The translations under genes were made by a program, and so were the position numbers. 18,598 bases of DNA from contig JARRCQ010000003.1 in NCBI GenBank assembly GCA_029982105.1, positions 1 to 18,598 of the forward strand, written 5' to 3'. This document shows, one piece after another, positions 300 through 18,203 of the stretch (positions are counted from its first letter, which is position 1; each line of letters starts with the position of its first letter). This stretch comes from Candidatus Atribacteria bacterium (GTDB lineage Bacteria > Atribacterota > Atribacteria > Atribacterales > Caldatribacteriaceae). A model generated the notes under the pieces. The model worked only from the letters and a program-made list of their open reading frames with translations, was not told where the DNA came from and made no database searches.

Positions 300-587
300 A
301 TGATTTTTGGTAAAGTTATGGGAACTGTAGTAAGTACTCAAAAAGACGATGGAGTGCAAGGAAAGAGGTATCTTATAGTTCAGTCCTGTCAGCCAAATGG
401 CAATCTCTTGAATGAATTTCATGTTGCTATCGATCTGGTCGGTTCTGGATATGGTGAGATGGTTCTTTTGTCGCAGGGGAGTTCGGCTCGCCAAACTCAG
501 GATACTTATCAAAAAGCGGTTGACTGTATCATTGTCGGAATAGTTGATCTGGTTGAAGAGAAGGATCATTTGGTTTATCAAAAATGA
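300..587 (+). CDS. EutN/CcmL-family BMC vertex (pentamer) protein
   Basis: This 95-residue protein has the usual length for the EutN/CcmL/PduN family. It begins MIFGKVMGTVVSTQK, the typical first beta strand, then shows GKRYLIVQ, a 'D-L-V-G-S-G-Y-G-E' turn, the 'GSSAR' pore loop and 'IIVGIVD' near the C-terminus. It would close the fivefold vertices of the shell. The ATG at 300 has a purine-rich ribosome-binding region (ggagagagg) just upstream. It is the second of a tandem pair and is followed within about 25 bases by the PduS-like gene, so co-transcription is expected. The residue that would line the fivefold pore cannot be fixed without a structure. Confidence 0.9.
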   Translation: MIFGKVMGTVVSTQKDDGVQGKRYLIVQSCQPNGNLLNEFHVAIDLVGSGYGEMVLLSQGSSARQTQDTYQKAVDCIIVGIVDLVEEKDHLVYQK

Positions 588-611
588 CCATTAGGGTTGG
601 AGGGTGTCTCT

Positions 612-1937: not shown

Positions 1938-1944
1938 AAATATT

Positions 1945-2499: not shown

Positions 2500-2533
2500 A
2501 GAGTTTGCAATGCAGGGAGGGTTGAAACTTAAG

Positions 2534-2602
2534 ATGTGGGGGAAACGTTTTGTTAGACTTGAAGATTGTGGATGGTTATTAATATGGAAATTATGGGAAT
2601 AA
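2534..2602 (+). other. possible 22-residue small ORF overlapping the aldehyde dehydrogenase start
   Basis: ATG at 2534 opens a 22-codon frame (MWGKRFVRLEDC... ending in LWE, TAA at 2600). A good Shine-Dalgarno sequence GGGAGGG (2516-2522) lies 11 bases upstream. It overlaps the start region of the downstream dehydrogenase in another frame. The peptide is Trp-rich and I recognise no family. It may be a leader peptide coupling translation, a decayed remnant, or chance. The strong site here contrasts with the weak one directly before the dehydrogenase. Confidence 0.2.
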
Positions 2603-4029
2603 GCGAGAGAGAAGTAAGATTAATTGTTGAAAAAATAGTAAATCAGCTGGGAACTAAAAGTGATATTGGTTTGCCTGAAGCGGATAAAATTGATGGAGGA
2701 GAATCATCTGGGTTATTTACTAATATCGAATCGGCTATTGATGCTGCTGAAAAAGCTTATTTCGAGCTCCACAAACTCAGTCTTGAGCATCGCAAAGAAA
2801 TGATCCGTCAAATCCGCAAGACGGTAATGTCTAATCTGGAATTTCTTTCCAGAATGGCAGTTGAAGAAACGACCTGTGGTCGGGTAGAAGATAAAATTGA
2901 AAAACATAGGTTGGCTGCTCTCAAAACACCTGGTGTAGAGGATTTGGAGCCAACTGCCTATACTGATGACCATGGTATGACCCTGGTTGAAAGAGCGCCT
3001 TATGGGGTAATTGGGGCAATCATTCCCTCTACCAATCCTACCACTACAGTGGTTAATAATACTATTAGTATGATTGCTGGCGGAAATACGGTGGTCTTCC
3101 ATCCCCATCCCCAGGCTAAGAAAAGTTCCTGTATGGCAGTGTCACTCCTTAATCAAGCGATTGTGAAAGCTGGAGGACCGAATAATGTTATTTGTGCTAT
3201 GAAAGAGCCTACCATAGAAACTGCTCAGTTGATGATGAAACACCCTAAGGTTAAGCTTTTAGTGGTAACTGGTGGCCCGGGAGTAGTAAAAGTGGCTATG
3301 AATAGTGGGAAAAAAGTTATCGCTGCGGGTCCGGGTAATCCTCCTTGTGTAGTGGATGAAACTGCGGATATCGTTAAAGCAGGAAAAGACATCGTTAAGG
3401 GAGCAAGTTTTGACAACAATATTATCTGTATCTGTGAGAAAGAGGTTCTGGCTGTATCAAGTATTGCTGATAAACTGAAAGAGGAAATGAAAAAGAACGG
3501 AGCTTATGAACTCGATAGCAATCAAGTAAATAAACTAACTGAGCTGATAATTGAGGTGCCAGGAGGTCCGGGTAAAGAAGGTGCGCCTAATAAAAAGTTT
3601 GTAGGTAAAAATGCCAGCCTAATTGCTAAGGAAATCGGTTTGAATATCTCTGATAATGTTAGATTGCTGTTATGTGAAGTTGGACCAGACCATCCGCTGG
3701 TGTGGACGGAGCAACTTATGCCGGTTATGCCCTTAGTTAGGTTTTCTAATGTAGAAGAGGCAATCGATTTTGCTGTGCAATGTGAACATGGCTTTCGCCA
3801 TACTGCTATTATGCATTCTAAGGATGTTGGTCATCTTACCCAGATGGCCAAACTTATGAATTGTTCCATCTTTGTTAAAAATGGACCCAGCTATTGTGGA
3901 TTGGGATATGGAGGAGCTGGTTTTGCATCCTTTACTATTGCCAGCCCGACCGGCGAGGGTTTAACTAGAGCGAGAACATTTACTCGGGAGCGACGTTGTA
4001 TTTTAGTTGATTATTTCAGGATTGTTTAA
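2584..4029 (+). CDS. pduP: CoA-acylating aldehyde dehydrogenase (PduP/EutE-like), BMC cargo
   Basis: Oxidises a short aldehyde with NAD+ and CoA to acyl-CoA inside the BMC; acetaldehyde is likely, given DeoC in the operon. From the ATG at 2584 it has 481 residues. The N-terminus ISEREVRLIVEKIVNQLG is an amphipathic helix of the encapsulation-peptide type, joined by a Gly/Asp/Ser-rich linker to the catalytic domain from about residue 40. Family motifs include GVIGAIIPSTNPTTT, the VTGGPGVV nucleotide region and KVIAAGPGNPPCVVDE. The catalytic Cys282 lies in GASFDNNIICICEKE. The N-terminal start is uncertain: in-frame TTG 2566, ATG 2572, ATG 2584 and ATG 2593 all precede the helix. I prefer 2584 for the GGATGG eight bases upstream. 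It lies between the shell/redox genes and the second pentamer pair. Confidence 0.93.
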   Translation: MEIMGISEREVRLIVEKIVNQLGTKSDIGLPEADKIDGGESSGLFTNIESAIDAAEKAYFELHKLSLEHRKEMIRQIRKTVMSNLEFLSRMAVEETTCGRVEDKIEKHRLAALKTPGVEDLEPTAYTDDHGMTLVERAPYGVIGAIIPSTNPTTTVVNNTISMIAGGNTVVFHPHPQAKKSSCMAVSLLNQAIVKAGGPNNVICAMKEPTIETAQLMMKHPKVKLLVVTGGPGVVKVAMNSGKKVIAAGPGNPPCVVDETADIVKAGKDIVKGASFDNNIICICEKEVLAVSSIADKLKEEMKKNGAYELDSNQVNKLTELIIEVPGGPGKEGAPNKKFVGKNASLIAKEIGLNISDNVRLLLCEVGPDHPLVWTEQLMPVMPLVRFSNVEEAIDFAVQCEHGFRHTAIMHSKDVGHLTQMAKLMNCSIFVKNGPSYCGLGYGGAGFASFTIASPTGEGLTRARTFTRERRCILVDYFRIV

Positions 4030-4050
4030 ATGTAAGGAGCAAGTTAAAGG

Positions 4051-4335
4051 ATGAAATTGGGAAAAGTTATTGGGACAGTAGTTTGTAATCAAAAGGTAGA
4101 TTCATTTACTGGAGTTAAGTTGTTATTAATTCAGCCTTTGGATGAGAACCTGAAGGAGGATGGAAATCCAGTTGTAGCTTGTGATACGGTTCAGGCTGGA
4201 TTAAATGATATCGTTTTTTACGAAGGAGGTAGAGAAGCAGCTTTAGGGCTGGCTAATTGGTTTAATCCTTCTGATTTGACGGTTATGGGGATTGTCGATG
4301 ATTTGTATGTGGAGAAAATAGATGATTTTAGCTAA
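4051..4335 (+). CDS. EutN/CcmL-family BMC vertex (pentamer) protein
   Basis: 94 residues starting MKLGKVIGTVVCNQK, then GVKLLLIQPLD, a D-T-V-Q-A-G turn and LTVMGIVDD. All are standard EutN/CcmL landmarks. It lacks the 'GSSAR' segment of the other three copies and has GGREAALGL in its place, so the fivefold pore lining or partner preference may differ (inference). An AAGGAGC site lies upstream of the ATG. The last 14 bases overlap the next pentamer gene, suggesting translational coupling and perhaps joint assembly. Confidence 0.9.
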   Translation: MKLGKVIGTVVCNQKVDSFTGVKLLLIQPLDENLKEDGNPVVACDTVQAGLNDIVFYEGGREAALGLANWFNPSDLTVMGIVDDLYVEKIDDFS

Positions 4336-4612
4336 GGTAATTGGCCATGTAATTTCAACCATAAAGTTGAGCGCCTTTAAAGGTTTTAAACTATTACTTG
4401 TTCAACCAGTTGATGCTGATGGAAAGCCAAAAGGTAAGGTTTTGTTAGTACTTGATACTGTTCAGGCTGGTATTGGTGATATAGTTTTGGTCATGGATGA
4501 AGGTAACTCAGCCCGTGCTATTGTTGGAGATTCTTTTGCGCCTATTCGTTCATTAATTGTGGGAATTGTTGATGAGGTTAGATTAACGGGGGAAAAGAAA
4601 GATGAAGCATGA
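4322..4612 (+). CDS. EutN/CcmL-family BMC vertex (pentamer) protein
   Basis: 96 residues beginning MILAKVIGHVISTIK, followed by GFKLLLVQPVDADGKPKG, D-T-V-Q-A-G-I-G-D, the EGNSAR pore segment and LIVGIVDEV. The ATG lies within the last 14 bases of the preceding pentamer gene, and its own end overlaps the start of the rpiB-like gene by 11 bases. Translation of the three genes is therefore probably coupled. It is the fourth vertex-protein gene in this locus. Confidence 0.9.
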   Translation: MILAKVIGHVISTIKLSAFKGFKLLLVQPVDADGKPKGKVLLVLDTVQAGIGDIVLVMDEGNSARAIVGDSFAPIRSLIVGIVDEVRLTGEKKDEA

Positions 4613-5162
4613 AGATTCTCAAGGCTCAATACGGATTATTGATAATGTGGTGAGCGGATTATATTCATCAACCACTTTAAACCAGACGACAAATCCTCAA
4701 ACCAATGATAAAGTTCTAAGAGTTGCTATAGGGTCTGACCATGGAGGATATGAAGCCAAGGAAAAGTTGAAGGTTTTCTTGCAAGAATTAGGATACCGAG
4801 TAACCGATGTTGGTACCTATGATACTAATAGTGTTGATTATCCTGATTTTGCTTTGAAAGTAGCTTTGAAAGTTAAGTCTGGTGATTGTGAAAGGGGAAT
4901 TATGGTTGATGGAGCAGGTATAGGTTCTTCCATGGTGTGTAATAAAGTCAGGGGAATACGGGCAGCACTTTGTTATGATCTCAAAACTGCGGTAAATAGC
5001 AGGGAACATAACAATGCTAATGTTCTTACTCTTGGTGGTCCATTACATCCGATTGAAGAATTATATGAAATAGTTAAAGTTTGGTTAGAGACAAAGTTTG
5101 CTGGTGGAAGGCATTGGAAACGGATCAACAAAATGATGGATATTGAAAAAAGATATTTATAA
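4602..5162 (+). CDS. rpiB: RpiB/LacA/LacB-family sugar-phosphate isomerase with N-terminal extension
   Basis: 186 residues, against about 145-150 for ordinary RpiB. Residues 1-38 are an extra N-terminal segment (contains IRIIDNVVSGLYSS, a possible though weak cargo helix) before the domain starts at VLRVAIGSDHGGYEAKE. Asp46 and His47 in GSDHGG and His136 in REHNNANVLTLGG match RpiB active-site residues. The position of the usual catalytic Cys (CGTGIG in RpiB) is Asp103 in VDGAGIGSS. The base for enediol chemistry must therefore differ, and the substrate may not be ribose 5-phosphate. The likely role is preparing the sugar phosphate cleaved by the adjacent DeoC. It overlaps the upstream pentamer gene by 11 bases. 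Confidence 0.85.
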   Translation: MKHEDSQGSIRIIDNVVSGLYSSTTLNQTTNPQTNDKVLRVAIGSDHGGYEAKEKLKVFLQELGYRVTDVGTYDTNSVDYPDFALKVALKVKSGDCERGIMVDGAGIGSSMVCNKVRGIRAALCYDLKTAVNSREHNNANVLTLGGPLHPIEELYEIVKVWLETKFAGGRHWKRINKMMDIEKRYL

Positions 5163-5187
5163 AATTAAAAATTGTTAGGAGCCTATT

Positions 5188-5994
5188 ATGGATCAAGAAA
5201 AACTTATTGATAAAATTACTCAAGAAGTAATGAATAGACTGAGTGGGATGGGATATAGTGAAAGTGGGTCTACCACTGTGAGTCAGAGAGCTAGAAATGT
5301 GGTTACTCAGCAGGAGTATGAAGGTTGTGAATGTGTTACCCCGGCGGGTTTAGCATCGTATATCGACCACACCTTGTTGAAGCCTGATGCTACCCAAACT
5401 CAGATTGACCAGCTCTGTCAGGAAGCTATCCAATATTCTTTTTGTTCAGTTTGTGTGCAACCTTTTTGGGTGAGCTATTGTGCAAGAAAATTGAGAGGGA
5501 CTAAAGTTAAAGTATGTACAGTTGTGGGATTTCCACATGGGGCTAACGTTCCGTCTACGAAAGCATTTGAAACTCGGCAAGCTATTGAAGATGGTGCTCA
5601 GGAAATCGATATGGTCATCAATGTCGGTGCGCTTAAATCAGGTAATCTTAGAGTAGTGGAAGAGGACTTGCGAGCTGTTAAGAGAGCTTGTCGCTCTACA
5701 ACAATTACTAAAGCGATTATCGAAGCTTTTCTTTTAACCGATGATGAAAAAATTACGATCTGTCAGTTGGTGAAAAAGGTTGGATACGACTTTGTAAAGA
5801 CTTCGACCGGTTTTGCCGGTGGGGGAGCTACTGTACATGATGTGGCTTTGATGAGAAGAGTAGTTGGCCCTAAGATGGGAATAAAAGCTGCAGGAGGCAT
5901 TCGTAGTTTTGAAGATGCAAAGGCTATGGTGTTAGCTGGCGCTACGAGACTTGGAACTAGTGCTAGTATAAAAATTGTAAGTGGACAAAGTTAA
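5188..5994 (+). CDS. deoC: deoxyribose-phosphate aldolase with BMC encapsulation peptide
   Basis: Class I aldolase cleaving 2-deoxyribose 5-phosphate to acetaldehyde and glyceraldehyde 3-phosphate. It has 268 residues, about 45-50 more than free DeoC. Residues 1-22 (helix [15 protein letters not shown]) form an amphipathic encapsulation-type helix, followed by a Ser/Thr-rich linker to about residue 50. The TIM barrel begins [15 protein letters not shown]. Visible catalytic residues are the Schiff-base Lys204 in FVKTSTGF, Lys233 in IKAAGGI and Asp141 in [16 protein letters not shown] lies six bases before the ATG. It follows rpiB and precedes PduL, making it the likely signature enzyme that generates aldehyde inside the compartment. 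Confidence 0.94.
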
Positions 5995-6009
5995 AAATGG
6001 GATAGGGTT

Positions 6010-6684
6010 ATGGATGAAAGCGGGCTTATAAGTAGCCAAACTTTATCGGAAATTATAAGCGAGGTGGTTGGTAAATATGTTGTTGAGAGTGAGTTTGTTC
6101 TCGAGGGGGAATATTCTATACCAGTTGAAATTTCTCGTCGGCATATTCATCTGACCCGAGCCGCTTTGGATATTTTATACGGGAAAAATTACCAGTTGAC
6201 TAAAGTTCGAGATATATCGCAACCTGGAGAGTTCGCCAGTGAGGAAAAAGTAATTATAATTAGCCCTAAGATGAAAATTATTGAAGGAGTACGTATTGTG
6301 GGACCCTTGAGAGAATATACCCAAGTAGAGTTAGCAATGACTGATGCCTTTCTTTTGGGTTTAGATTCTATTCCTACTCGTTTATCAGGAGACATAGCTG
6401 GTTCCCAACCAATTACTCTAGTTGGGCCAAAAGGCTCTCTAACTCTTACTGAAGGAGCTATACGTGCTGCCCGACATGTTCATATGACCCCTCAGGATGC
6501 AGAAAAGTATAAAGTTAAGAATGGTGATCGAGTAAAGGTGGAAACTGAAGGAAAAAACGGGGTAATATTCAAAGATGTTATTGTTAGAGTTTCTGATAAA
6601 TCTAAGTTAGCTTTTCATATTGACACTGATGAGGCTAACGCAGCTAATATTAAGGGGCCAGTCTTCTCTAGAATTTTGTATTAA
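6010..6684 (+). CDS. pduL: PduL-type phosphate acyltransferase (phosphotransacylase), BMC cargo
   Basis: Converts acyl-CoA and phosphate to acyl phosphate, recycling CoA within the compartment and allowing ATP formation by a kinase. It has 224 residues. The first ~26 (ISSQTLSEIISEVVGKYV) are an N-terminal helix like the encapsulation peptide of PduL. The PTAC domain then shows the metal-binding histidines of the family: His45 and His47 in RRHIHLT, His156 and His158 in ARHVHMT, and His203 in FHIDTDEANAA. It is last in the BMC operon and starts 15 bases after deoC. No acetate kinase gene is in the window. Confidence 0.93.
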   Translation: MDESGLISSQTLSEIISEVVGKYVVESEFVLEGEYSIPVEISRRHIHLTRAALDILYGKNYQLTKVRDISQPGEFASEEKVIIISPKMKIIEGVRIVGPLREYTQVELAMTDAFLLGLDSIPTRLSGDIAGSQPITLVGPKGSLTLTEGAIRAARHVHMTPQDAEKYKVKNGDRVKVETEGKNGVIFKDVIVRVSDKSKLAFHIDTDEANAANIKGPVFSRILY

Positions 6685-6806: not shown

Positions 6807-7583
6807 ATGAAAAAAGAAGAGAGAATTAATTACATTGTTAATATTCTTTCCCTCCAGGGGATTGTTCGTATCCGCGAACTTTCCCAAAAATTGGGGGTTT
6901 CGGAAATGACCATTCGCCGGGACTTGGATTCTTTAGCCCAAGCAAATATTGCTGACCTGATACCAGGAGGAGCGGTGCTTAAGCGGAACTCGTCTTCAGA
7001 TTTGGGAGAGGAGCATTACCTCTTTTCTGCTGCCGGGTCTCAAATGATTCAGGAAAAAATAAGAGTTTGCCGGAAAGCTGCTTCCTTGGTAGAAGCCAAT
7101 GATACCATTGCCATAGATGTTGGCAGTACTACTGAACAATTACCTCAGTTTATTCCCTCTTCCCTTCCTCTTACTATCATCTGTTTTACCCTTAATATTC
7201 TGTTCAAAGTATATGGGAACGAAAACTGGGAAATTACGCTTACGGGAGGCCGTTTTCATAGAAATACCCTGATGTTTGAAAGTCCAGAAGGAGTTGAACT
7301 TATCAAGAAAATGAGGATTAATAAGGCTTTTATTTCAGCAGCAGGTGTTGATGAAAAATTAGGGGTAACCTGTGCTAATCATTACGAGGTAGAAACCAAA
7401 AAAGCTGCGATGCAATCCTCAGATACCAAGATTTTGCTCTCGGATTCTTCCAAATTTGGCAAGGTCAAGATTGCTTATTTTGCCGACCTTTCAGATTTTG
7501 ACTTAATAATTACTGATTCTAACCTGGATCCTTACTATCAAGATATAATACGGGACTTGGGATTACAACTAATTCTCGTGTAA
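6807..7583 (+). CDS. DeoR-family transcriptional regulator, likely controlling the BMC operon
   Basis: 258 residues, normal for the family. The N-terminal winged helix-turn-helix covers about residues 5-57 (RINYIVNILSLQGIVRIREL, then SEMTIRRDLDSL as recognition helix, then PGGAV in the wing). The C-terminal sugar-phosphate-sensing domain includes DVGSTTEQL (104-112), the usual D-x-G-[ST]-T phosphate loop, and later ILLSDSSKFGK, typical of DeoRC. DeoR proteins usually repress sugar-catabolic operons and release DNA on binding a phosphorylated sugar. A sugar-phosphate BMC directly upstream makes a 2-deoxy-sugar phosphate or related effector plausible (inference). GGGAGA lies upstream of the ATG. 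Confidence 0.9.
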   Translation: MKKEERINYIVNILSLQGIVRIRELSQKLGVSEMTIRRDLDSLAQANIADLIPGGAVLKRNSSSDLGEEHYLFSAAGSQMIQEKIRVCRKAASLVEANDTIAIDVGSTTEQLPQFIPSSLPLTIICFTLNILFKVYGNENWEITLTGGRFHRNTLMFESPEGVELIKKMRINKAFISAAGVDEKLGVTCANHYEVETKKAAMQSSDTKILLSDSSKFGKVKIAYFADLSDFDLIITDSNLDPYYQDIIRDLGLQLILV

Positions 7584-7730: not shown

Positions 7731-7759
7731 TTGCTTTTTTTGAAACCTTACTGTATTAT
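7731..7759 (+). promoter_or_regulatory. candidate sigma-70 promoter of the leuC-leuD-glyA operon
   Basis: TTGCTT (7731-7736), a 17-base spacer and TATTAT (7754-7759) precede the start codon at 7797 by 37 bases. The spacing is ideal and the boxes match the consensus moderately (3/6 and 5/6). The rest of 7584-7796 contains no gene that I can support. Confidence 0.5.
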
Positions 7760-7796
7760 GGAAAAATGTAAAAAGGAATTAGTGAGGAGCGATATT

Positions 7797-9053
7797 ATGG
7801 GAAAAACTATGGCAGAGAAAATATTCGAAAATAAAACTGGTTTTCCAGTTAAAGCAGGAGACCTGGTTATAGCTCGGGTAGATAGAGCTATGGGGCAAGA
7901 TGGGACTACTCCATTGGCTATCCGATCTTTTGAGGAGATGAAGGGAGAGCGAGTTTTTGACCCAGAGAAAATAATTCTGATTTTAGACCACAATGCTCCC
8001 AGTCCTTTAGAATCCGTTTCTCGGCTTCATGATTTGATGCGTGACTTTTCTCGAAAGTTCGGGGTGCAGCTTATGGAAGTAGGAGAAGGAGTGTGCCATG
8101 AACTAATGGTATCCCGGGGGTTTGTGGTGCCGGGAGATTTAGTAGTGGGAGCTGATTCCCATACTTGCACTTATGGAGCGATTGGTGCTTTTTCTACCGG
8201 GGTGGGGAGTACAGAGTTAGCGGTAGTGATGCTCTCAGGAGAATTGTGGTTTAAAGTACCAGAAACTATTCGCTTAAACTTGAAAGGCAAATTACCGGCA
8301 GGGGTATTCTCTAAAGACATTATCCTTTATCTTGCCGGTAAATTAGGAGCTGATGGAGCTACTTACCAGGCTCTGGAGTTTCACGGACCGGTGATAGAAA
8401 ATTTAGAAGTGGAAGAACGCTTTACCATTTCCAATATGGCAGTGGAAGTAGGAGCGAAAGCTGGTCTTATGATTCCCGATGAAAAAGCGATAAAGTGGGT
8501 GAGAGAGAGGACTAATCGAGAGTTTCAGCCTGTTTTCCCGGATTCTGATGCTCAATATTCTCAGGTTATAGATGTAGATTGTTCTTCTCTTTCTCCTCAA
8601 GTAGCTCTACCTCACCAGGTAGACAATGTAGTGCCCATAGAGGAGATAGGAGAAGTTCCCATTCAGGAAGCCTTTTTGGGAACCTGTACCAACGGGAGAT
8701 TAGTGGATATAGAAGTGGCTGCGCGTATCTTAGAGGGAAGAAAAGTTCATCCGGAGGTGCGATTAATTGTTGCTCCTGCCTCTCGAGAGATTTTTTTAGA
8801 AGCGATAAAGAGAGGATGGGTAGAGACCATCGTCCTTGCTGGCGGAGTTTTTGTTCCCCCCGGGTGTGGCCCTTGTGTGGGAACTCATCAAGGGGTGCCA
8901 GGGGATGGCTGGAATGTTATTTCCACTGCTAACCGTAATTTTAAAGGGAGAATGGGCAATGCTCAATCTTTCATTTATTTAGCTTCTCCAGCTACAGTCG
9001 CTGCTTCGGCTCTCGAGGGTAAGATTACCGATCCTAGAAAATATCTGAGGTGA
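7797..9053 (+). CDS. leuC: 3-isopropylmalate/homoaconitate-type dehydratase, large subunit
   Basis: Aconitase-superfamily large subunit (418 residues, typical) that carries the 4Fe-4S cluster for dehydration/hydration of a 2-hydroxyacid. The cluster ligands are Cys297 in GTCTNGR and Cys357/Cys360 in GCGPCVG. GADSHTCTYGAIGAFSTGVGS is the family's substrate and cluster loop. The ATG at 7797 is chosen because GAGGAG lies seven bases upstream and the protein then starts MGKTMAEKIF, the normal family N-terminus. It is followed after six bases by the small subunit. No leuA, leuB or lysine-pathway gene is nearby, so the substrate (isopropylmalate, homoaconitate, methylmalate-type acid) is not settled. 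Confidence 0.9.
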   Translation: MGKTMAEKIFENKTGFPVKAGDLVIARVDRAMGQDGTTPLAIRSFEEMKGERVFDPEKIILILDHNAPSPLESVSRLHDLMRDFSRKFGVQLMEVGEGVCHELMVSRGFVVPGDLVVGADSHTCTYGAIGAFSTGVGSTELAVVMLSGELWFKVPETIRLNLKGKLPAGVFSKDIILYLAGKLGADGATYQALEFHGPVIENLEVEERFTISNMAVEVGAKAGLMIPDEKAIKWVRERTNREFQPVFPDSDAQYSQVIDVDCSSLSPQVALPHQVDNVVPIEEIGEVPIQEAFLGTCTNGRLVDIEVAARILEGRKVHPEVRLIVAPASREIFLEAIKRGWVETIVLAGGVFVPPGCGPCVGTHQGVPGDGWNVISTANRNFKGRMGNAQSFIYLASPATVAASALEGKITDPRKYLR

Positions 9054-9059
9054 AAGGAA

Positions 9060-9566
9060 ATGATTTTGCGAGGTAAAGCTCATAAGTTTGGGGATAATAT
9101 TAACACTGATTATATTATCTCTGGAAAATACAAATTTAAGACTTTAGATATGAATGAACTGGCTAAGCACGTGATGGAAGACATTGACCCTCATTTTTAT
9201 GAGAAGATAAAGCCAGGCGATTTTATAGTGGCGGGAAGAAATTTTGGTTGTGGTTCATCCCGGGAACAGGCTCCTCGAGCGCTCTCTGCAGCAGGAATCC
9301 GAGGGGTTCTCGCTCAGTCTTTTGCCCGTATTTTCTTTCGCAATGCTATCAATTGTGGTTTGGCGGCTTTAGAATGCGATACCTCTCTGATAGAAGATGG
9401 AGATGAATTAGAAATTGACCTTCTTACCGGAAAAGTGGTAGACCACTCTCAGGGAATAGAGATTAAAACCCAACCTTTACCTCCGGTTATGGTGGATATT
9501 CTGCAAGAAGGGGGTCTAATAGAGTATTTCAAAAAATATGGTTCTTTTCAGGGGGTCAGAAGATAA
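9060..9566 (+). CDS. leuD: 3-isopropylmalate/homoaconitate-type dehydratase, small subunit
   Basis: 168 residues, the size of archaeal-type LeuD/HacB swivelling-domain subunits. It has HKFGDNINTDYIISGKY near the N-terminus and NFGCGSSREQAPRAL, the conserved active-site serine/arginine segment. In characterised homologues a short loop after the Tyr (YLRT or YLVx type) reads the substrate side chain. Here the loop is Y24-K25-F26-K27-T28, with two lysines and apparently one extra residue, so specificity cannot be transferred from LeuD or HacB by name. It starts six bases after the large subunit and ends three bases before glyA. Confidence 0.88.
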   Translation: MILRGKAHKFGDNINTDYIISGKYKFKTLDMNELAKHVMEDIDPHFYEKIKPGDFIVAGRNFGCGSSREQAPRALSAAGIRGVLAQSFARIFFRNAINCGLAALECDTSLIEDGDELEIDLLTGKVVDHSQGIEIKTQPLPPVMVDILQEGGLIEYFKKYGSFQGVRR

Positions 9567-9569
9567 ACT

Positions 9570-10826
9570 ATGTGGGAGCTGGTAAAAGAGGTAGACCCGG
9601 AAGTTTATCACTGGATAGTAAAGGAACTGGAGCGAGAGAGAAATAAATTAGAATTAATAGCTTCGGAAAATTTTACCAGTTTAGCGGTAATGCAAGCGCA
9701 AGGCTCTATTTTAACTAATAAATATGCTGAAGGATATCCCCGTCGGCGCTACTATGGGGGTTGTGAATTTGTAGATGAAGTGGAAAGCCTTGCCATAGAG
9801 AGAGCCAAAGAGCTTTTTGGAGCAGAGCATGTTAATGTCCAGCCTCATTCCGGCTCTCAGGCTAATATGGCGGTTTATTTCGCCGTTCTTAAGCCCGAAG
9901 ATACAGTGATGGGAATGGATTTATCTCATGGAGGACACCTCACTCATGGAAGCCGGGTAAATTTCTCCGGGATATTATACAATTTTGTACCTTATGGAGT
10001 AGACCCTTCCACCGAAACCATAGACTATGTGGCTCTGGAAAAGCGAGCAAAAGAAGTTAAACCTCGTTTAATAGTGGCAGGAGCCAGTGCTTACCCTCGT
10101 TTCATTGATTTTGAGAGGATGCGCCATATTTGTGATGAGGTAGGTGCTTATTTTATGGTGGATATGGCTCATATTGCCGGATTAGTGGCAGCGGGAGTTC
10201 ACCCTAGCCCTATCCCTTTTGCTCATTTTGTTACCACTACCACTCATAAGACTCTTCGAGGTCCCCGGGGAGGAATGATTTTTTGCCAAAAGGAATTTGC
10301 TTCCGCTATTGATCGGGCTATATTTCCCGGGACTCAAGGAGGGCCTCTTCTTCATGTCATTGCTGCCAAAGCGGTAGCCCTCCGGGAAGCTTCGACTCCT
10401 GAGTTTGTGGATTACCAAAAACAAGTGGTTAAAAATGCTAAGGTTTTTGGGGAAAGCTTAAGCGCTCGGGGATACCGGCTGGTTTCTGGTGGAACTGATA
10501 ACCATCTCCTTTTGGTGGATTTGCGGGAGGCGGGAATAACCGGAAAAGAAGCCGAAAAAATTTTAGATGAAGTGGGAATAACAGTTAATAAAAACGCCAT
10601 TCCTTTTGATGAGGAGAAACCCACGGTAACCAGTGGCATCAGAATTGGCACTCCTGCTTGTACCACTCGAGGTATGAAAGAGAAAGAAATGGAAATCATT
10701 GCTGAGTGTATGGATAAGGCCCTCCGGGGAAAGAACGACCCTCAGATTCTCAGCCAGGTTAAAAATCAAGTGCGAGAGCTGTGTCAGAAATTTCCTCTGT
10801 ATCCGGAAATAACCAATGGGGAATAA
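9570..10826 (+). CDS. glyA: serine hydroxymethyltransferase
   Basis: PLP enzyme interconverting serine and glycine with transfer of a one-carbon unit to tetrahydrofolate. It has 418 residues (usual 410-420). Landmarks are [11 protein letters not shown] near the N-terminus, [15 protein letters not shown], the PLP-binding [10 protein letters not shown] with Lys227 as internal aldimine residue, and [12 protein letters not shown] near the C-terminus. It begins three bases after the LeuD-like stop and so is almost certainly co-transcribed with the dehydratase. The pairing is unusual and may be only housekeeping co-expression. Confidence 0.95.
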
Positions 10827-11569: not shown

Positions 11570-11804
11570 AGGGTTTTTATGGGAAGTAATGTGCTCGTGA
11601 TAATGCGATATTTCTACCCTCGATGAGATTGAGCGAATAGACAGCGGAGAATTGGGGTTGAAAGGTGATATGGCAATTTGGTTTAACCTTTGCCTGACTC
11701 CGTTTTGCAAGTTCATATTTCCTCTTTTTCCTCTGTAAGATAACTCGACCACCATGTTTGTTAAAATATTTTTTTCCCCACACTTTATTATAGAGCCCCC
11801 GTTC

Positions 11805-11833
11805 TTGACACCTTAAGGCGGGGTTTGTATAAT
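11805..11833 (+). promoter_or_regulatory. consensus sigma-70 promoter of the S1-domain gene
   Basis: TTGACA (11805-11810), exactly 17 bases, TATAAT (11828-11833): both boxes are perfect. The spacer contains the eight-base palindrome CCTTAAGG (11811-11818), and CCCCG (11797-11801) and CGGGG (11819-11823) form an inverted repeat around the -35 box. Strong basal transcription is expected, possibly with regulation at the spacer. Confidence 0.8.
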
Positions 11834-11872
11834 AAGCTCAATTTTTTATTAAAGGAGGATAGTTAGAAGTTA

Positions 11873-12235
11873 ATGGTTGAAGTTGGTAGCATTATGGAAG
11901 GTAAAGTGGTGGGTATTACCAAATTTGGAGCATTTATAGAATTAGAAGATGGAAAAAGAGGCTTGGTACATATATCAGAGATTTCTGATAAGTTTGTGAA
12001 AGACGTTAACGAACATTTAAAGCTAAATGACCAAGTAAAAGTAAAAGTAATCGGTATTTCTCCTGATGGAAAAATTGACCTTTCCATCAAAAAAGTTAAC
12101 GAAGATAGGGACTACGAAATAAAATTAGAAAAAAGCAAAGCCGGTTTCGAGCAAAAAATGACTCGCTTTCTAAAACAAAGTCAAGAAAAGCTCACTGATT
12201 TAAAACGCTATAACGATTCTAAACGCAAGCGCTGA
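11873..12235 (+). CDS. small S1-domain RNA-binding protein (YabR/GSP13-like)
   Basis: 120 residues. The S1 OB-fold spans about residues 1-75: VEVGSIMEGKVVGITKFGAF, then GLVHISEISDKFVKDV, then VKVKVIGISPDGKIDLSIKK. It ends with a basic, Lys/Arg-rich tail (DLKRYNDSKRKR). Proteins of this size associate with ribosomes or mRNA; the YabR/CvfD/GSP13 group is the closest match in layout. The GGAGG is 14 bases from the ATG, longer than usual, but a stop codon directly upstream in frame rules out an earlier start. Its 3' end overlaps the convergent cobalamin-domain gene by 28 bases. Confidence 0.85.
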   Translation: MVEVGSIMEGKVVGITKFGAFIELEDGKRGLVHISEISDKFVKDVNEHLKLNDQVKVKVIGISPDGKIDLSIKKVNEDRDYEIKLEKSKAGFEQKMTRFLKQSQEKLTDLKRYNDSKRKR

Positions 12236-13854
12236 AGAATGGAATTTACCCTTTCTTCCTCCTTTATTATTTCTCCTCTTTCGTTTACTATTCTTAAAAA
12301 TCCATCTATAACTCGGGTTTTAACTTTCCCGGGGGCATGGGGATTGCCCAATAGGTGGGGTGCGTCTAATATTCCCTCTTCTACCGCCTGGGCTAAAACT
12401 AGAGGAGAAGCCCAGGGGTCTTCTTCTTTTTCTCCCATTCTTTTTATTGCTTCTAAAATTAATTTAGCTTCTTTTTTTATTCTTTCTTTGTTTTCAATAA
12501 TAACTGGGTCAATTTCTACTTTAGGAAGTCCAAAAAGAGCATCTTTTATTACCCCTTCCACAATTTGAGCGCTTTCTATTACTTCTTCAGGGTGAGCCAA
12601 GTGGTCTGCTTCACAAAAACCCACTACGTGTATAATTTGAGGTTTTAAAAATAAGCCCAAGAAAGTGGAGGCTCCTAACTGTCCCTTGGCTATATTTAAA
12701 TCTACAGAAAAATGAGCCAGTCCCCCTCGAGTCTGGGTGAAAACAGTGAAATTTTCCCCTTCTAACTCTTTGATTAACTCAGCCTTGGCTAACATTTTAG
12801 ATAAATCGGCTTGAGGGGATATACCCGGTGGGGTATTGAGCATATATTGAGCAATGTAGTGATGAACTCCAGCTTTTTTAGCATTATAGGCAGCCAAGTA
12901 AAACGTGGCTGCAGCTACACTGTCGGGAGCGTCTCGCAGGCTCCACTGGTGAGATTCGTTTACCTCGAGAGGAACTCCTAATGAGGCATAGGCTCTCATA
13001 GCTTCCTGATTTTCTCGAATGGCTATAGGGAGACTTCTTTGAGAACGGCCATCTAATTTGCTATACCACATTAAAGGTACTGCTCCCCACGCAATATTAA
13101 TAGTTTCTTTCAAAAGATGAGCCCATTCCACCAAATTGTTGGTTCCGCTGTAGCAGCGTAAAAGAGGAAAGTTTCCTCGACGAGAGGCCTGGTATATCTT
13201 TTTTAGGTCTTCAGGTTGGCGCAAGGGAACGCCCCCTGCTCCTTTTTTCTCTTCATTCATGAGATGAGGTTGGAAAAATAATTCCTGAGCATTCTGATCT
13301 GGACCTAAAGAAATAATATCTATAACTCGAGCTTCGCTGATTTGCGCTACCCCCTCTACAGTTTCAGTTACAGAAGGTAGCCCGAAATGGTGTCTCAGAA
13401 GGGGAAAGGGGCTTTTAGCTTTTATTCTCTCAGGAAGGGTAGAAGGATATTTCTCCTCTGAAGAACTTTCTTTTTTCCCGGTTATGCTTTCTACTATGTC
13501 TTCGAAACGCTCTTTGCCAGTGAATATGTAGTCAAAAATTCCTGTTTTTTGAGCTATTTCCTCCAGAGCTGGGGTACAACTTAAAATGAGGACCAACTTA
13601 TCTAATAATTGATTTTTTTGTAGAGCTTCTTTAAGTTCTTGAAACAAGTTTTTAGCTGCTTCTTCGCTCAATCGGTAACCTACTATTACTCGGTCGGGGT
13701 TCTCTTCTTTTATCGCTTCTATCAGCTTTTCTACCGGGATGGCTGGGCCTAAAAAATGGGTTTGGTAACCATATTGCTCTGCTAAGGAAAGAAAACGATA
13801 TATACCGGCTACATGAACACAATTACCCAGTGATGCTCCTAAAATCTTTTTCAT
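12208..13854 (-). CDS. cobalamin-binding-domain protein with glutamate-mutase-like barrel
   Basis: 548 residues. The N-terminal ~130 residues look like a B12-binding Rossmann domain: KKILGASLGNCVHVAGIYRFL carries His14 and Gly17 of the D-x-H-x-x-G motif, but the Asp position is Cys12. The remainder (about residues 180-548) has NESHQWSLRDAPD, AYNAKKAGVHHYIAQYM, NTPPGISPQADLSKMLAK and GNPHAPGKVKTRV, resembling the TIM barrel of methylaspartate (glutamate) mutase E-type subunits. I infer a carbon-skeleton mutase or related B12 enzyme of unknown substrate. The ATG at 13854 has GGAGGAGA just upstream and forms an ATGA overlap with the preceding opine dehydrogenase stop. A longer frame beginning at 13968 is only the overlap. 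It is the third gene of the operon. Confidence 0.75.
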   Translation of the reverse strand: MKKILGASLGNCVHVAGIYRFLSLAEQYGYQTHFLGPAIPVEKLIEAIKEENPDRVIVGYRLSEEAAKNLFQELKEALQKNQLLDKLVLILSCTPALEEIAQKTGIFDYIFTGKERFEDIVESITGKKESSSEEKYPSTLPERIKAKSPFPLLRHHFGLPSVTETVEGVAQISEARVIDIISLGPDQNAQELFFQPHLMNEEKKGAGGVPLRQPEDLKKIYQASRRGNFPLLRCYSGTNNLVEWAHLLKETINIAWGAVPLMWYSKLDGRSQRSLPIAIRENQEAMRAYASLGVPLEVNESHQWSLRDAPDSVAAATFYLAAYNAKKAGVHHYIAQYMLNTPPGISPQADLSKMLAKAELIKELEGENFTVFTQTRGGLAHFSVDLNIAKGQLGASTFLGLFLKPQIIHVVGFCEADHLAHPEEVIESAQIVEGVIKDALFGLPKVEIDPVIIENKERIKKEAKLILEAIKRMGEKEEDPWASPLVLAQAVEEGILDAPHLLGNPHAPGKVKTRVIDGFLRIVNERGEIIKEEERVNSILQRLRLESL

Positions 13855-14948
13855 TTTGTCTCCTCCATCACTACCAATTCTCGGATTTCTTTGACGCTTA
13901 AACCTTTGAGTCCCAATTTTTCCACTGTTCTTCCCTCTTGCCAGTAATTTCTCCCGTGAAGGATGCATGCTAAGTGAATCATAGCATCAATTGTGGGAGT
14001 AGGAGTTTCTAACATATGACCAATAGAAGATATAGGAACAAGGCTGGCCGGAACATCTTCTGTAATATAGCGGTGGAAGACAGTGGGAGGAGCTTTAATT
14101 CCGTAATATCCAGGGTTATTTTGAATAGCTTCAAATAGATTGCGACCATGAGCGTCATAGGCAGAATAAAGCCATTCTCGAGCGGTAATTGCTCTTATTC
14201 CTAAAGACTCTCCTACTTTAACCCTTTCTTTATCTACTTCCTCTAAAATTAGAGCTACTGAAGGAGTTACTCCTTCTATATAATAATCAAATTCTCCATG
14301 GGTATTTTCGATACGACCGGCGTTAAGTATGGTTATAGTAGGGTGAAAAACTGCACCAATGTTATTGAAGCTGGTTTTTAAAACGTTATCCTCAGGGACA
14401 AATTGGGGAAGCGCTTTCCTTAAAGTTTGCACCACTTCCACTGTTTGATGAGCAGGGATAGCAGCTACCGGAACACTATTTTTAATTCTAAAAATTTTCA
14501 CCTGAGCTGGGCCAGAAATCCTGCTGGCAAAAATAAAAGTTTGGGCTTCAGCTACTATGACTTTGGCGCGGCACTCTCTTTCTTTTAAAACCTGTTTTAC
14601 TTCTAATGCTCCTCCAGTACGTCCTGGGTTAAGAACTATAATCTGCCCATCTTCTAAATAATTGCTCATCCTCTCAGCTATATAACGATGACCGGTGGCA
14701 GGAAGTACTACCATAATTACCTTTGCTCCTCGGACAGCTTCTTCTATATCAGAAGTGACTAAGGCTAAGGGAGCAAAACCCTGTATTTCTCCTTCTACTT
14801 GCATTCCTCCCATAAGCTTTATAGAATTTATGCGCTCCGGAGTACGATTAAAAAGGTTAACTTGGAAACCTTTTAGACTTAAATAGGCAGCCAAGGCTTG
14901 TCCTCCATGTCCGGCTCCTAATACGGCAAAAGTGAATTCCTCGTTCAT
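13851..14948 (-). CDS. NAD(P)-dependent octopine/nopaline (opine) dehydrogenase-family protein
   Basis: 365 residues. The N-terminal Rossmann fold shows FAVLGAGHGGQALAAYL (G11-x-G13-x-x-G16) and an acid-free beta2 end (NLFNRTPER) that may favour NADP (inference). The middle has MVVLPATGHRYIA and VLNPGRTGGA. The C-terminal opine-dehydrogenase domain has FNNIGAVFHPTITILNAG with His202, the expected catalytic histidine. Opine dehydrogenases reductively join an amino acid amine to a 2-oxoacid; some relatives act on other amines. The start at 14948 overlaps the upstream stop as ATGA; the ATG at 14969 lacks a ribosome-binding site. The stop overlaps the next gene's start in the same way. The true substrate is unknown. 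Confidence 0.8.
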   Translation of the reverse strand: MNEEFTFAVLGAGHGGQALAAYLSLKGFQVNLFNRTPERINSIKLMGGMQVEGEIQGFAPLALVTSDIEEAVRGAKVIMVVLPATGHRYIAERMSNYLEDGQIIVLNPGRTGGALEVKQVLKERECRAKVIVAEAQTFIFASRISGPAQVKIFRIKNSVPVAAIPAHQTVEVVQTLRKALPQFVPEDNVLKTSFNNIGAVFHPTITILNAGRIENTHGEFDYYIEGVTPSVALILEEVDKERVKVGESLGIRAITAREWLYSAYDAHGRNLFEAIQNNPGYYGIKAPPTVFHRYITEDVPASLVPISSIGHMLETPTPTIDAMIHLACILHGRNYWQEGRTVEKLGLKGLSVKEIRELVVMEETK

Positions 14949-15940
14949 AGTTGATTGTTTATCCTCCATTCGGTGATTTGCACTAGCTTCTGCACCATAG
15001 TTTTATAATCTATGCCACTCGCGTTACACATTTCTGGAAAAGCACTGTGCCGATAATAAAGAGAAGGAAGAGAGTTAAGTTCAAAGAAAAAGGGAATCCC
15101 TTCTTTCTCGGAAAACATCAGCTTAAAAGTGGCATAATCTCGCATATGTAATTCCTGGAAAATCCGGAGAGCCATTTTTTCTATCTGAGTTTTCTGCTCT
15201 TCCTCGAGAGGAGCAGGGCACAATACATCTTCTACATATCCTTTATCATTTTTAGTTTGAAAATCCCAGAGGGGTACCTGGTGAGAAACGTTAACTTCCA
15301 TAATGGGTAGAGGAAAGACGTTTTTCCCGTTGCCCCATACTCCCACCATCATTTCTCTTCCCGTTAAAAATTTTTCCACTATTACTTCATCTTTGGTTTC
15401 CAAGAAAACTCTTTGTGCTTCTCTTTCTAACTCTTCTCGGTTTTGGACCACCGATTGACTGGTAATTATCTCTTGATGAGAACGAAAACGGGGCTTGACA
15501 ATGAGAGGAAAATCCAGATTTTCTGGTATTTCTTCTTTGGGAGACCATATAAAATAAGAAGGAGTAGGTATACCTATTCCCCTTAAACACAGTTTACTTA
15601 AGGAGCGGTCTAAACAAAGTGAATGAACCATAGAGTTAGACCCTAAATAAGGTATATTATTAGCATCTAAAAGAAGAGGAAGAAAGGCTTGATTGTAAAT
15701 ACCCGAAACACAGATGGTAAGGTTGAACACTAAGTCTATCTTTTCAGAAAGAAATTCACTTATCTGGGGTAGAGGTAAATCTACATTAATTTTATTTACC
15801 TCCCATCCCGCCTCTTGCAATGCTTCCTCTATCATAGCCAAAGTTTTACCTTTAAGCTCAGTTCGAGTTTTATAGAAGTTTTCTTCTTGATTTTCAAAGA
15901 TTTCTTGACTGTAGGTAATCCAAGCGCTTTTGATAGGCAT
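14945..15940 (-). CDS. D-alanine-D-alanine-ligase-like ATP-grasp enzyme
   Basis: 331 residues, near the usual 300-360 for Ddl. It has DLVFNLT, ANNIPYLGSNSMV, LDRSLSKLCLRGIGIPTPSYF, the ATP-grasp strand FPLIVKPRFRS, VIVEKFLTGREMMVGVWG and the metal/substrate loop FELNSLPSLYYRHSAFP. The canonical Ddl glycine loop (EGSSVGV after VKP) is replaced by RFRSHQEIIT, and the HGxxGEDG substrate segment is altered (ICVSGIYNQ). It is therefore probably not a cell-wall Ddl but another amino acid or peptide ligase. The ATG at 15940 is preceded by AAGGAAG; a GTG at 15943 is too close to that site. First gene of the three-gene minus-strand operon. Confidence 0.8.
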   Translation of the reverse strand: MPIKSAWITYSQEIFENQEENFYKTRTELKGKTLAMIEEALQEAGWEVNKINVDLPLPQISEFLSEKIDLVFNLTICVSGIYNQAFLPLLLDANNIPYLGSNSMVHSLCLDRSLSKLCLRGIGIPTPSYFIWSPKEEIPENLDFPLIVKPRFRSHQEIITSQSVVQNREELEREAQRVFLETKDEVIVEKFLTGREMMVGVWGNGKNVFPLPIMEVNVSHQVPLWDFQTKNDKGYVEDVLCPAPLEEEQKTQIEKMALRIFQELHMRDYATFKLMFSEKEGIPFFFELNSLPSLYYRHSAFPEMCNASGIDYKTMVQKLVQITEWRINNQL

Positions 15941-15968
15941 CACTTCCTTTTACCTTTTTACCAAAAAT

Positions 15969-15998
15969 AGAATAACACAAATTAGCTTATTAATGCAA
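15969..15998 (-). promoter_or_regulatory. candidate promoter of the ATP-grasp/opine dehydrogenase/B12-domain operon
   Basis: Read on the minus strand, TTGCAT (15998-15993), an 18-base spacer and TATTCT (15974-15969) lie about 29 bases before the ATG at 15940. Spacing and distance are right, and box matches are moderate. Confidence 0.4.
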
Positions 15999-16614
15999 AT
16001 CTTACTGAGGATAGCCCTTTTTTCTTTTGTGTCAGTTTATTTAGCTATCGAAATTTTGTGTATCATTCTTCATTGGAAAAGGGAGCATTTGATAAAAGAA
16101 ATATTTGGCCCTTGCAATAGCCGCCGGATGACCATTAATTTGGCTCGTGGTGGGGTTGAGTATGGAGCTACTCAACCTCGGAATTTTGCTAGTCCTTTAC
16201 TGGTGGTGTAGAATTTTACTAATCTTTGTAATTTCATCCCTATACTTGCTTTTTCCGGGGGAGTGAGAAGTGTTAGCATTTCTCTATCAATATTTGGTGG
16301 GGGGAGAAAGATATTTGTTTTCAAACTGCTTTCCAGTTGGGTAGGAAATGTTTAGAAAAAATGCCGAAGGGATATAATTGCTGATTGCTATTCGGTATCT
16401 AAAAGGAAAGATAGCTTTAAGTAATATTACAGAGCAGCCGCTCTTCCGAATCTGGAGGGAATCACTGGTGTTAAAAGAGCTGAGAGATAGAACTCTCTAC
16501 TGGGGGCATTGTGGGAAATGTGATTACCGGTCAGTATATGGAGATTGCCGAGTTCTATATTATGCTTATTTTAAGGATTATTCAGTTCCTGATCAGGGTT
16601 GTAAGTTTAATTAG
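15993..16614 (+). pseudogene. decayed radical SAM/SPASM-domain gene
   Basis: Two coding remnants of one gene remain. The first (ATG 15993, frame open to TAG at 16209) has a hydrophobic segment, then EYGATQPRNFASPLLVV. It resembles the leader just before the cluster motif of radical SAM proteins whose next residues are typically W-N-x-T-x-x-C-N. Reading through the TAG gives N-F-T-N-L-C-N, so a Trp codon (TGG to TAG) appears to have become a stop. The C-x3-C-x2-C motif itself is then lost. The second remnant (16378-16614, another frame) reads NITEQPLFRIWRES...LKELRDR...CGKCDYRSVYGDCR, a SPASM C-terminus in which one expected Cys is Tyr. The whole is about 620 bases against over 1,000 for intact genes, so internal deletion and frameshift are implied. 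Family recognition is from memory. Confidence 0.7.
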
Positions 16615-16685
16615 TAGTTTTGGGAAGAGAGGTCAAAAAAAGAAGCTTATCTGGCAAATTTTTGATTTAATTAAAGAGGTGAAAA

Positions 16686-18203
16686 ATGGATAATAGTTTT
16701 TATGTTACTACTCCTATTTACTATGTAAACGATGTTCCTCATATCGGTCATGCGTATACTACTTGTGCTGCTGATGTTCTGGCTCGCTATTATCGCTTGC
16801 GAGGAGATAGAGTCCTTTTTTCTACTGGTACTGATGAACACGGACAAAAGATAGAGAAAGCTGCTAAAGACCAGGGAATTTCTCCTCAAGAACTGGTGGA
16901 TAAAGTGGTGGTTCGTTTCCAGGATTTGTGGGAGAAAATGAACATCTCTTACGATGAGTTTATTCGTACCACTGATCCTCGTCACATAAAAGTAGTGCAA
17001 GATTTTTTCCGATTACTGGATGAACGAGGCTACATTTATCTTGGGGATTATGAAGGGTGGTATTGTGTTCCTTGTGAAACCTTCTGGCCGGAAAACCAAT
17101 TGGATGAGCGTCTGGTGTGCCCGGATTGTGGAAGACCTTTAGAGAGGTTGAAAGAAGAAAGTTATTTTTTTGCTCTTTCTCGTTTTCAAGAACCACTTTT
17201 GCAATATTTGGAAAGTCATCCCGATTTTATAATGCCTGAAAGTCGATATCATGAAATTGAGAGTTTTATAAGAGGAGGACTCAAAGACCAGAGTATTTCT
17301 CGTCTGGGACTGGAATGGGGGATACCAGTTCCTTCCAACCCTCGTCATACTCTTTATGTGTGGTTTGATGCTTTGGTTAATTATTTAACTGTAGCTGGTT
17401 GGGGGAGTTCGGAAGAAAAATTCTCTACTTTTTGGCCTTCTGCTTATCATTTGGTGGGTAAAGATATTCTTCGCTTTCACGCTGTTCTCTGGCCTGGAAT
17501 GCTTATGGCTGCATCTTTGCCTCTGCCTCGGAGAATATTTGCCCATGGTTGGTGGACGGTAGAAGGAGAAAAAATGTCCAAATCTCGGGGTAATGTAGTA
17601 GACCCTTATTTAATGATTGACTGCTATGGAGTAGACCGTTTCCGGTATTTTCTGATGAGGGAAGTGAGCTTTGGCTTGGATGGAGATTTTTCAGAAAAAG
17701 CACTAGTAGAACGTTCTAATTCTGATTTATCCGACAACTTTGGCAACTTCGTTCATAGAACTTTAGGGATGGTATGGAGATATAAAAAGGGAGTAGTAAG
17801 GAGACCTTCTCTTTATCCCGATGAAGGGTGGGAAGAATTGTTGAAAGAAACAAAAGCAAATTACTTCTATTATATGGAGCAATTTGCTTTTGCGCAGGCC
17901 TTGGAACAGGTTTGGAAACTGGTGCATTTTGCTAACCGCTATATTGACCGGGAAGCTCCTTGGCGTCTATATCAGGAAGGGAAAGAAAAGGAAGTGGAAG
18001 CTCTTCTTTATCAATTATTGGATGATGCTCGATTACTGAGTTATTTGGTTTATCCTTTTATGCCCGATACCGCTTTGAAATTAAGAGAACTTCTGGGTTT
18101 GCCCCGGAATTGGGAGAAAGAAAGAAATTTATCCTGGCAAGAAGGACCGGAGGTTTATTCAGTGGAAGAAGCTCAACCTTTGTTTCCCAGAATTATAAAT
18201 TAA
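16686..18203 (+). CDS. metG: methionyl-tRNA synthetase
   Basis: Class I synthetase charging tRNA-Met, 505 residues, without the C-terminal tRNA-binding domain fused. Signatures are HIGH at 19-22 (VPHIGHAYT), GTDEHGQKIEKAA, a zinc knuckle C127-x2-C130 and C145-x2-C148, and KMSKS at 296-300 (GEKMSKSRGN). The anticodon-binding helical domain follows (for example FGNFVHRTLGM and PWRLYQEG). GAGGTG precedes the ATG. The separate tRNA-binding protein is encoded immediately downstream. Confidence 0.97.
   Translation: MDNSFYVTTPIYYVNDVPHIGHAYTTCAADVLARYYRLRGDRVLFSTGTDEHGQKIEKAAKDQGISPQELVDKVVVRFQDLWEKMNISYDEFIRTTDPRHIKVVQDFFRLLDERGYIYLGDYEGWYCVPCETFWPENQLDERLVCPDCGRPLERLKEESYFFALSRFQEPLLQYLESHPDFIMPESRYHEIESFIRGGLKDQSISRLGLEWGIPVPSNPRHTLYVWFDALVNYLTVAGWGSSEEKFSTFWPSAYHLVGKDILRFHAVLWPGMLMAASLPLPRRIFAHGWWTVEGEKMSKSRGNVVDPYLMIDCYGVDRFRYFLMREVSFGLDGDFSEKALVERSNSDLSDNFGNFVHRTLGMVWRYKKGVVRRPSLYPDEGWEELLKETKANYFYYMEQFAFAQALEQVWKLVHFANRYIDREAPWRLYQEGKEKEVEALLYQLLDDARLLSYLVYPFMPDTALKLRELLGLPRNWEKERNLSWQEGPEVYSVEEAQPLFPRIIN

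Follow-up and report, generated by a model that had tools for sequence, protein, structure and literature searches.

A predicted B12-dependent protein family was described from 11 bacteria of four groups, always encoded beside an octopine/nopaline dehydrogenase, and no function was given to it (PMC2667541, section 8). In several organisms, genes of a D-Ala:D-Ala ligase and of asparagine synthase were found near this family (PMC2667541). In the literature searched, outside which most subscription journals lie, we met no further description of the pair of opine dehydrogenase (ODH) and B12 protein. Here, we analyse a three-gene operon which encodes such a pair together with a Ddl-like ATP-grasp protein, and which lies in an 18,598-nt stretch (the whole of which is called the window) of an Atribacterota genome that is 60% complete in 144 contigs. 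Since the association was predicted in 2009, the original prediction went too far in naming the three genes the strongest candidate for an undescribed system. What is new here is the mutase barrel of the B12 protein, its link to MutL, a triple gene fusion, a two-arm pattern of neighbours, a ligase that alternates between two types, and the diverged ligase of Atribacterota.

Results

The ODH and B12 genes form a constant pair

The genes of P0003 (ATP-grasp protein), P0002 (ODH) and P0001 (B12 protein) follow one another in this order on the minus strand (Table 1), and at both junctions the plus strand reads tcat, i.e. the coding strand has an ATGA stop/start overlap. The gene order and the two overlaps bear out the claim that the three genes form one operon.

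Conservation was followed in 25 genomes of the window's order (G000-G024) and in two wider sets from outside that order, which overlap in some genomes. Set A consists of the best 80 of 497 confirmed stretches coding relatives, with one genome per species (11 of the 80 are Atribacterota). Set B was drawn from 299 genomes of Thermoanaerobacter's phylum. The window's subfamily is present in 58 of them and a sister subfamily (described below) in 2, one genome having both; the 58 loci analysed are 56 of the window type and both sister loci, the remaining two of the window type (L018, L070) being part of set A. An ODH gene was counted as adjacent if it was on the same strand at a distance of at most 250 bases.

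In the window's order, the B12 gene was found in 21 of the 25 genomes (G016 has only a fragment at a contig edge, and G014 has two pieces), and at all 21 loci, the window's locus included, the ATP-grasp, ODH and B12 genes stand in a row. An adjacent ODH gene is present in 76 of the 80 set A loci, bacterial and archaeal; three of the other four stop at a contig edge, and L047 has none. Set B gave 56 of 58, with the ODH gene at most 4.5 kb away in L239 and absent in L190. Hosts in set A are Atribacterota, Bacteroidota, Ignavibacteria, Bacillota, Aminicenantes, Gemmatimonadota and others, and archaea which by record title belong to Methanomicrobia (L016), Lokiarchaeota (L022), Thorarchaeota (L050, L053, L064, L081) and Thermococci (L051). 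In 72 loci, the distances among B12 proteins correlate with those among ODHs (Mantel r 0.648, a value reached by 0 of 2000 permutations), and the nearest neighbour is identical for both proteins in 38 of these loci, a pattern that fits long joint inheritance and would also be compatible with exchange. The P0001 family has at least 6355 database matches.

The constant unit is the pair of ODH and mutase, with a variable third gene, and this pair is real, ancient and widely shared. Its adjacency in both sets upholds the view that the two proteins are partners, and co-occurrence in other genomes, the check proposed at the outset, was found, for all three genes in the window's order and for the pair far beyond it. 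The idea of a constant three-gene cassette needs correction; in most loci elsewhere no ligase is encoded nearby, and where there is one its type varies by lineage.

P0001 has a mutase barrel and P0002 a conserved ODH active site

By sequence, P0001 matches the Pfam families B12-binding (E 2.6e-6) and Met_asp_mut_E (E 3.6e-4), both under the curated cut-offs; with 19.6 bits against 26.6, the latter match is below the threshold for glutamate mutase proper. A profile alignment to MutE has E 2.6e-5. The structural model shows a confident glutamate mutase/aminomutase barrel with the B12 domain fused on, and this barrel aligns to residues 44-440 of 1cb7_B over 375 positions (root mean square deviation 2.9). 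The label 'mutase-like' is weak by sequence and strong by predicted structure.

In the B12-ligand motif (DxHxxG), H14 and G17 are kept at ≥95% in both subfamilies, and the D position is C. E415 aligns with MutE E330. The MutE residues R66, R100 and R149, which we take to be the arginine claw of glutamate mutase, and E171, to which we likewise attribute a role there, are aligned to H156, a gap, Y235 and no Glu, in a register that may be off by two; the conserved R154 and R233 of P0001 sit two residues upstream of H156 and Y235. Each cassette carrier of the window's order (21 of 21) encodes a CobA/BtuR adenosyltransferase, which was found in 44 of 50 Atribacterota genomes overall; the PduO type was found in none of the 50 genomes searched. 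The adenosyltransferase in 21 of 21 carriers and E415 at the position of MutE E330 are only indirect pointers to adenosylcobalamin (AdoCbl) as the probable cofactor.

Seven NCBI entries among the relatives of P0001 (P0006, P0014, P0016, P0021, P0026, P0027, P0049) are named methionine synthase. The resemblance is confined to the B12 domain, and the naming is likely a transferred misannotation.

P0002 matches Octopine_DH (PF02317) with E 4.8e-49 (166.7 bits against a cut-off of 30), and it is homologous over its full length to CENDH 1bg6 (E 1.7e-83, the best match) and more weakly to octopine dehydrogenase. Twelve residues, R110, R143, N196, H202, P203, W259, Y264, Y281, R293, Y294, E297 and D298, are invariant in 75 of 75 aligned ODHs, two of which come from the sister subfamily. 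H202, R293 and D298, presumably the catalytic His, Arg and Asp, align with identical residues in both solved enzymes.

The ligase slot depends on lineage

P0003 matches Pfam Dala_Dala_lig_C with E 3.5e-30, its best solved Ddl match by sequence is 3r23 (E 1.3e-26), and the closest fold to its model (predicted local distance difference test score 94.2) is DdlA 8evx_B (E 2.5e-23). The metal ligands E287 and N289 are retained; the active-site Arg and Asp of Ddl are replaced by T271 and K273, and RFRSHQE stands in place of the serine loop. In the 12 Atribacterota ATP-grasps examined, T, S or V occupies the Arg position and K, H or R the Asp position, and both Arg and Asp are kept in 13 of 13 cassette-type ATP-grasps of other phyla. 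Close relatives of P0003 (≥47%) are only Atribacterota where names are given, and the next drop to ≤36%.

Of the set A loci, 14 of 80 have a cassette-type ATP-grasp gene at a distance of up to 4.5 kb, and of the set B loci 10 of 58 (not counting L076, L078, L195 and L196, in each of which an ordinary Ddl gene is encoded on the opposite strand). At the same distance, 21 of 80 and 4 of 58 loci have an AsnB-like gene, a count that includes L201 (613 aa, 2.3 kb off), which may be an ordinary AsnB. No locus has both, and most have neither, so that the ligase is a lineage-dependent slot, filled by a Ddl-like ATP-grasp or by an AsnB-like protein. The PP-loop SGGxDSS is present in 21 of 21 AsnB-like neighbours. 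The catalytic Cys2 of the glutaminase is absent in 18 of them (N-termini of L029, L069 and L070 judged by eye) and kept in 3, and thus most cannot use glutamine. The AsnB-like protein of L020 matches AsnB 1ct9 (E 6e-52) and beta-lactam synthetase 1jgt (E 5.7e-22).

A sister subfamily carries MutL and has other neighbours

Sister-subfamily relatives that end in a MutL domain and measure ∼1220 aa, some of them truncated at the edge of a contig, occur in 8 of 24 genomes of another Atribacterota class. In 50 Atribacterota genomes there are seven MutL matches over the cut-off, all within these fusion proteins and none in genomes of the window's order. With a MutL-fused relative as query, 426 database matches were returned, the best 120 of which come from several phyla. 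In one of these proteins, P0277 (1657 aa), Octopine_DH (198-364), B12-binding (432-493) and MutL (1120-1638) are joined in a single chain, with 35% identity to P0001 and 30% to P0002. Free-standing MutL is encoded near the window-type B12 gene in 4 of 56 set B Bacillota loci (L226, L230, L238 and L239, the last confirmed as PF13941 with E 4e-168) and near none of the 80 set A loci.

Importer genes stand beside the sister subfamily in 7 of 7 loci with enough flank, L116 and L262 being too short for this count: TAXI and TRAP transporters are encoded in all five Atribacterota loci counted (L112, L113, L114, L259, L260), and oligopeptide ABC transporters together with a peptidase C26 in both Bacillota loci (L208, L209). 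A further sister locus, L261, has an OppD-like gene upstream, its sequence stopping after the mutase, and a D-glutamate-cyclase-like gene is present in L112 and L114 as well. Around window-type loci (L208 and L209 excluded), at distances of up to 6 kb, the same importer queries matched in 1 of 80 set A loci (L007) and 0 of 56 set B loci, peptidase C26 in none, and the D-glutamate-cyclase-like gene in one (L051).

Osmotic-type genes near some set A loci

An MscS gene is directly upstream of the ODH gene in L028, L038, L075 and L071 (gaps of 19, 94, 68 and 46 bases). In L030, the operon holds an MscS gene behind that of an Na/H exchanger. Na/H exchangers are near L025, L030 and L049 (in the operon in L025 and L030), CLC channels near L017, L038, L048 and L075, trehalose synthase near L041 and L049 (directly upstream in L049), and an amino-acid-permease/SLC12-like transporter near L031, L041 and L059. 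In set A, six osmotic-type queries gave 17 matches within 3 kb (14 loci, 398 kb) versus 5 at 3-8 kb (4 loci, 450 kb); without the query that has no Pfam match, 15 near matches in 12 loci remain. Since these queries were picked after viewing the neighbourhoods, this contrast is mostly circular, except for MscS matches outside the query's lineage. In the 56 set B Bacillota loci, the queries had no match either near (≤3 kb) or far (3-8 kb).

Other features of the window and of related loci

Table 1. Features of the operon in the window
Feature	Position	Strand	Evidence
P0003, Ddl-like ATP-grasp protein of 331 aa, encoded first in the operon	14945..15940	-	Pfam and fold model; open reading frame
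ODH-family protein P0002, 365 aa	13851..14948	-	Octopine_DH and CENDH 1bg6 homology; open reading frame
B12-dependent mutase-type protein P0001, 548 aa	12208..13854	-	open frame, domains, structure
P0001 N-terminal B12-binding domain, residues 1-128, C-V-H-x-x-G motif at 12-17	13471..13854	-	
P0001 mutase barrel, residues 136-541	12232..13449	-	structural alignment to 1cb7_B
ATGA stop/start overlap, ATP-grasp to ODH	14945..14948	-	sequence
ATGA stop/start overlap, ODH to B12 protein	13851..13854	-	sequence

The P0001 gene and a convergent S1-domain gene (11873-12235) overlap at their 3′-ends by 28 bases. At gathering scores, no Rfam RNA, cobalamin riboswitch included, matched in the window, and at the thresholds used no tRNA or tmRNA was found in it; a promoter and terminator scan of 11800-16700 gave sites no more numerous than in shuffled sequence. 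The window also holds a bacterial microcompartment locus (300-6684; Pfam on seven of its genes) encoding EutN/CcmL and BMC shell proteins, aldehyde dehydrogenase, an RnfC-like protein, a PduL-type phosphotransacylase, RpiB and DeoC aldolase, which looks like a sugar-phosphate aldolase compartment. It is followed by a DeoR-like regulator (6807-7583, by eye) and, consecutively at 7731-10826, by genes of an aconitase-family (isopropylmalate dehydratase-like) large subunit, a small subunit (by eye) and serine hydroxymethyltransferase.

In Aminicenantes, two TldD/PmbA-type metallopeptidase genes come after the ODH-B12 pair in L033, L057, L062 and L079, and at least one in L039 and L068. Downstream of the pair, 8 of 80 set A loci, all Bacillota (L027, L032, L034, L035, L045, L055, L056, L063), have the operon of a V-type ATPase. 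In L101 (G014:C63:7104-8728), the B12 gene is divided into two reading frames.

Discussion

The explanation toward which we lean, with confidence somewhat short of even, is a conserved two-enzyme metabolic unit of B12 mutase and ODH with a variable third gene, which is synthetic in the window type and has a catabolic sister arm. We infer the cofactor form, the direction, the order of steps and all substrates as follows. P0001 is most likely an AdoCbl-dependent radical mutase of the glutamate-mutase type, which would rearrange the skeleton of a small acidic, glutamate-like compound, and P0002, as an NAD(P)H-dependent ODH, most likely couples an amino group of that compound to a 2-oxo acid, or catalyses the reverse. 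In the window's subfamily the pair is most likely biosynthetic, and the ligase where present, ATP-grasp or AsnB-like, would close an amide using ATP, the Atribacterota copy being far diverged from Ddl; the ligase slot as a whole argues for such an ATP-dependent amide step. The sister subfamily, with its fused MutL and its importer and amide hydrolase/cyclase neighbours, most likely degrades the same type of compound. We hold it to be decidedly doubtful, as a further step, that the two subfamilies are the synthetic and salvage arms of one undescribed class of opine-type, amide-bearing, mutase-rearranged metabolites that would be common among anaerobic bacteria and archaea and would serve some of them, at least, as osmolyte.

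Two observations weigh against a synthetic window type. The serine loop, Arg and Asp of Ddl are replaced in 12 of 12 Atribacterota ATP-grasps, which may be altered or inactive. The proposal that the ATP-grasp protein could add an amide bond keeps the Ddl fold and the E/N ligands in its favour, and it is uncertain for P0003 because the catalytic residues of Ddl are lost. Moreover, the queries of the importer contrast were drawn from the sister loci, and few lineages are behind it.

It would be an unlikely though serious alternative that the whole system is catabolic, with the ODH oxidising an imported opine or amino acid, the mutase rearranging the amino acid thus released so that it can be fermented, and an incidental or regulatory role for the ligase-like gene. 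Lysine and ornithine fermentation follow this logic of a B12 mutase combined with an NAD dehydrogenase, most hosts are anaerobes, importers adjoin the sister subfamily, and the Atribacterota ATP-grasp is without the catalytic residues of Ddl. However, the tested importer types are near only one of 80 and none of 56 window-type loci, two unrelated kinds of ATP-using ligase recur in an operon with the pair, and methylaspartate ammonia-lyase (MAAL_C) is over the cut-off in none of the 21 cassette carriers. The methylaspartate route of glutamate fermentation was considered separately and rejected: the window's genome has no canonical MutE, and MAAL_C is over the cut-off in 1 of 50 Atribacterota genomes.

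Rather improbable, too, is a compatible solute as the product; this would be a zwitterion of the opine type, formed in response to salt or heat stress, with its spare carboxylate amidated. The MscS, Na/H exchanger, trehalose synthase and CLC neighbours and the excess of near over far matches in set A would suit it, and an octopine dehydrogenase gene of Thermoanaerobacter, which may differ from the ODH gene of the pair, is reported to be up in a strain tolerant to ethanol (PMC3751872). Against this stand the mostly circular choice of queries, the two of 17 matches (L046, L067) that come from the query without Pfam match, and the lack of such neighbours in the 56 Bacillota loci and beside the window's copy. 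That P0001 is a corrinoid methyltransferase or a methionine synthase relative, as the NCBI names and the match of its B12 domain to corrinoid methyltransferase domains might suggest, is very improbable, given that the barrel matches radical mutases, that methionine synthase aligns over the B12 domain only, and that relatives have MutL fusions and MutL neighbours.

If the two-enzyme unit is what we propose, a B12-dependent carbon-skeleton rearrangement would be coupled to opine chemistry, a combination not met in the literature searched, in at least 6355 predicted proteins, many of which are labelled methionine synthase in databases. This would explain a widespread B12 demand of subsurface anaerobes. 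Because the conserved minimal unit comprises only two enzymes, expression of two genes could be enough to find the metabolite.

Comparison with known systems

For none of the three proteins was there a close match to a solved or characterised enzyme, which would have told against the original prediction (the best are CENDH for the ODH and Ddl 3r23 for the ATP-grasp), and no characterised pathway with these parts was found in the literature searched. Glutamate mutase (GlmE/MutE with GlmS and the reactivase GlmL/MutL) differs from P0001, whose B12 domain is fused N-terminally and whose identity is ∼16%. Its arginine claw, E171 and K326 are not kept at the aligned positions of P0001, where the register may be off by two, and it has a MutL reactivase, whereas in the window's order no MutL is over the cut-off. 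In lysine 5,6- and ornithine 4,5-aminomutase, the lysine of OraE 'DIKHGG', which we take to be the one binding pyridoxal phosphate (PLP), lies in an insertion absent from the P0001 family profile, and this profile lacks the PLP-binding lysine of OraE/KamDE aminomutases.

P0002 is homologous over its full length to N-(1-D-carboxyethyl)-L-norvaline dehydrogenase (CENDH, 1bg6) and scallop octopine dehydrogenase and keeps their His, Arg and Asp; to our knowledge, neither enzyme has a mutase partner. P0003 shares with D-alanine–D-alanine ligase the fold and the E/N metal ligands, and differs in serine loop, Arg and Asp. The AsnB-like neighbours have the PP-loop in common with AsnB and beta-lactam synthetase, and most differ in missing Cys2. 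The closest counterpart is the family of Zhang et al. 2009 (PMC2667541), with the same ODH adjacency and the same ligase neighbours, to which we liken the present one by gene association. That family was reported from bacteria only and had no mutase assignment; the present analysis adds archaea and more phyla.

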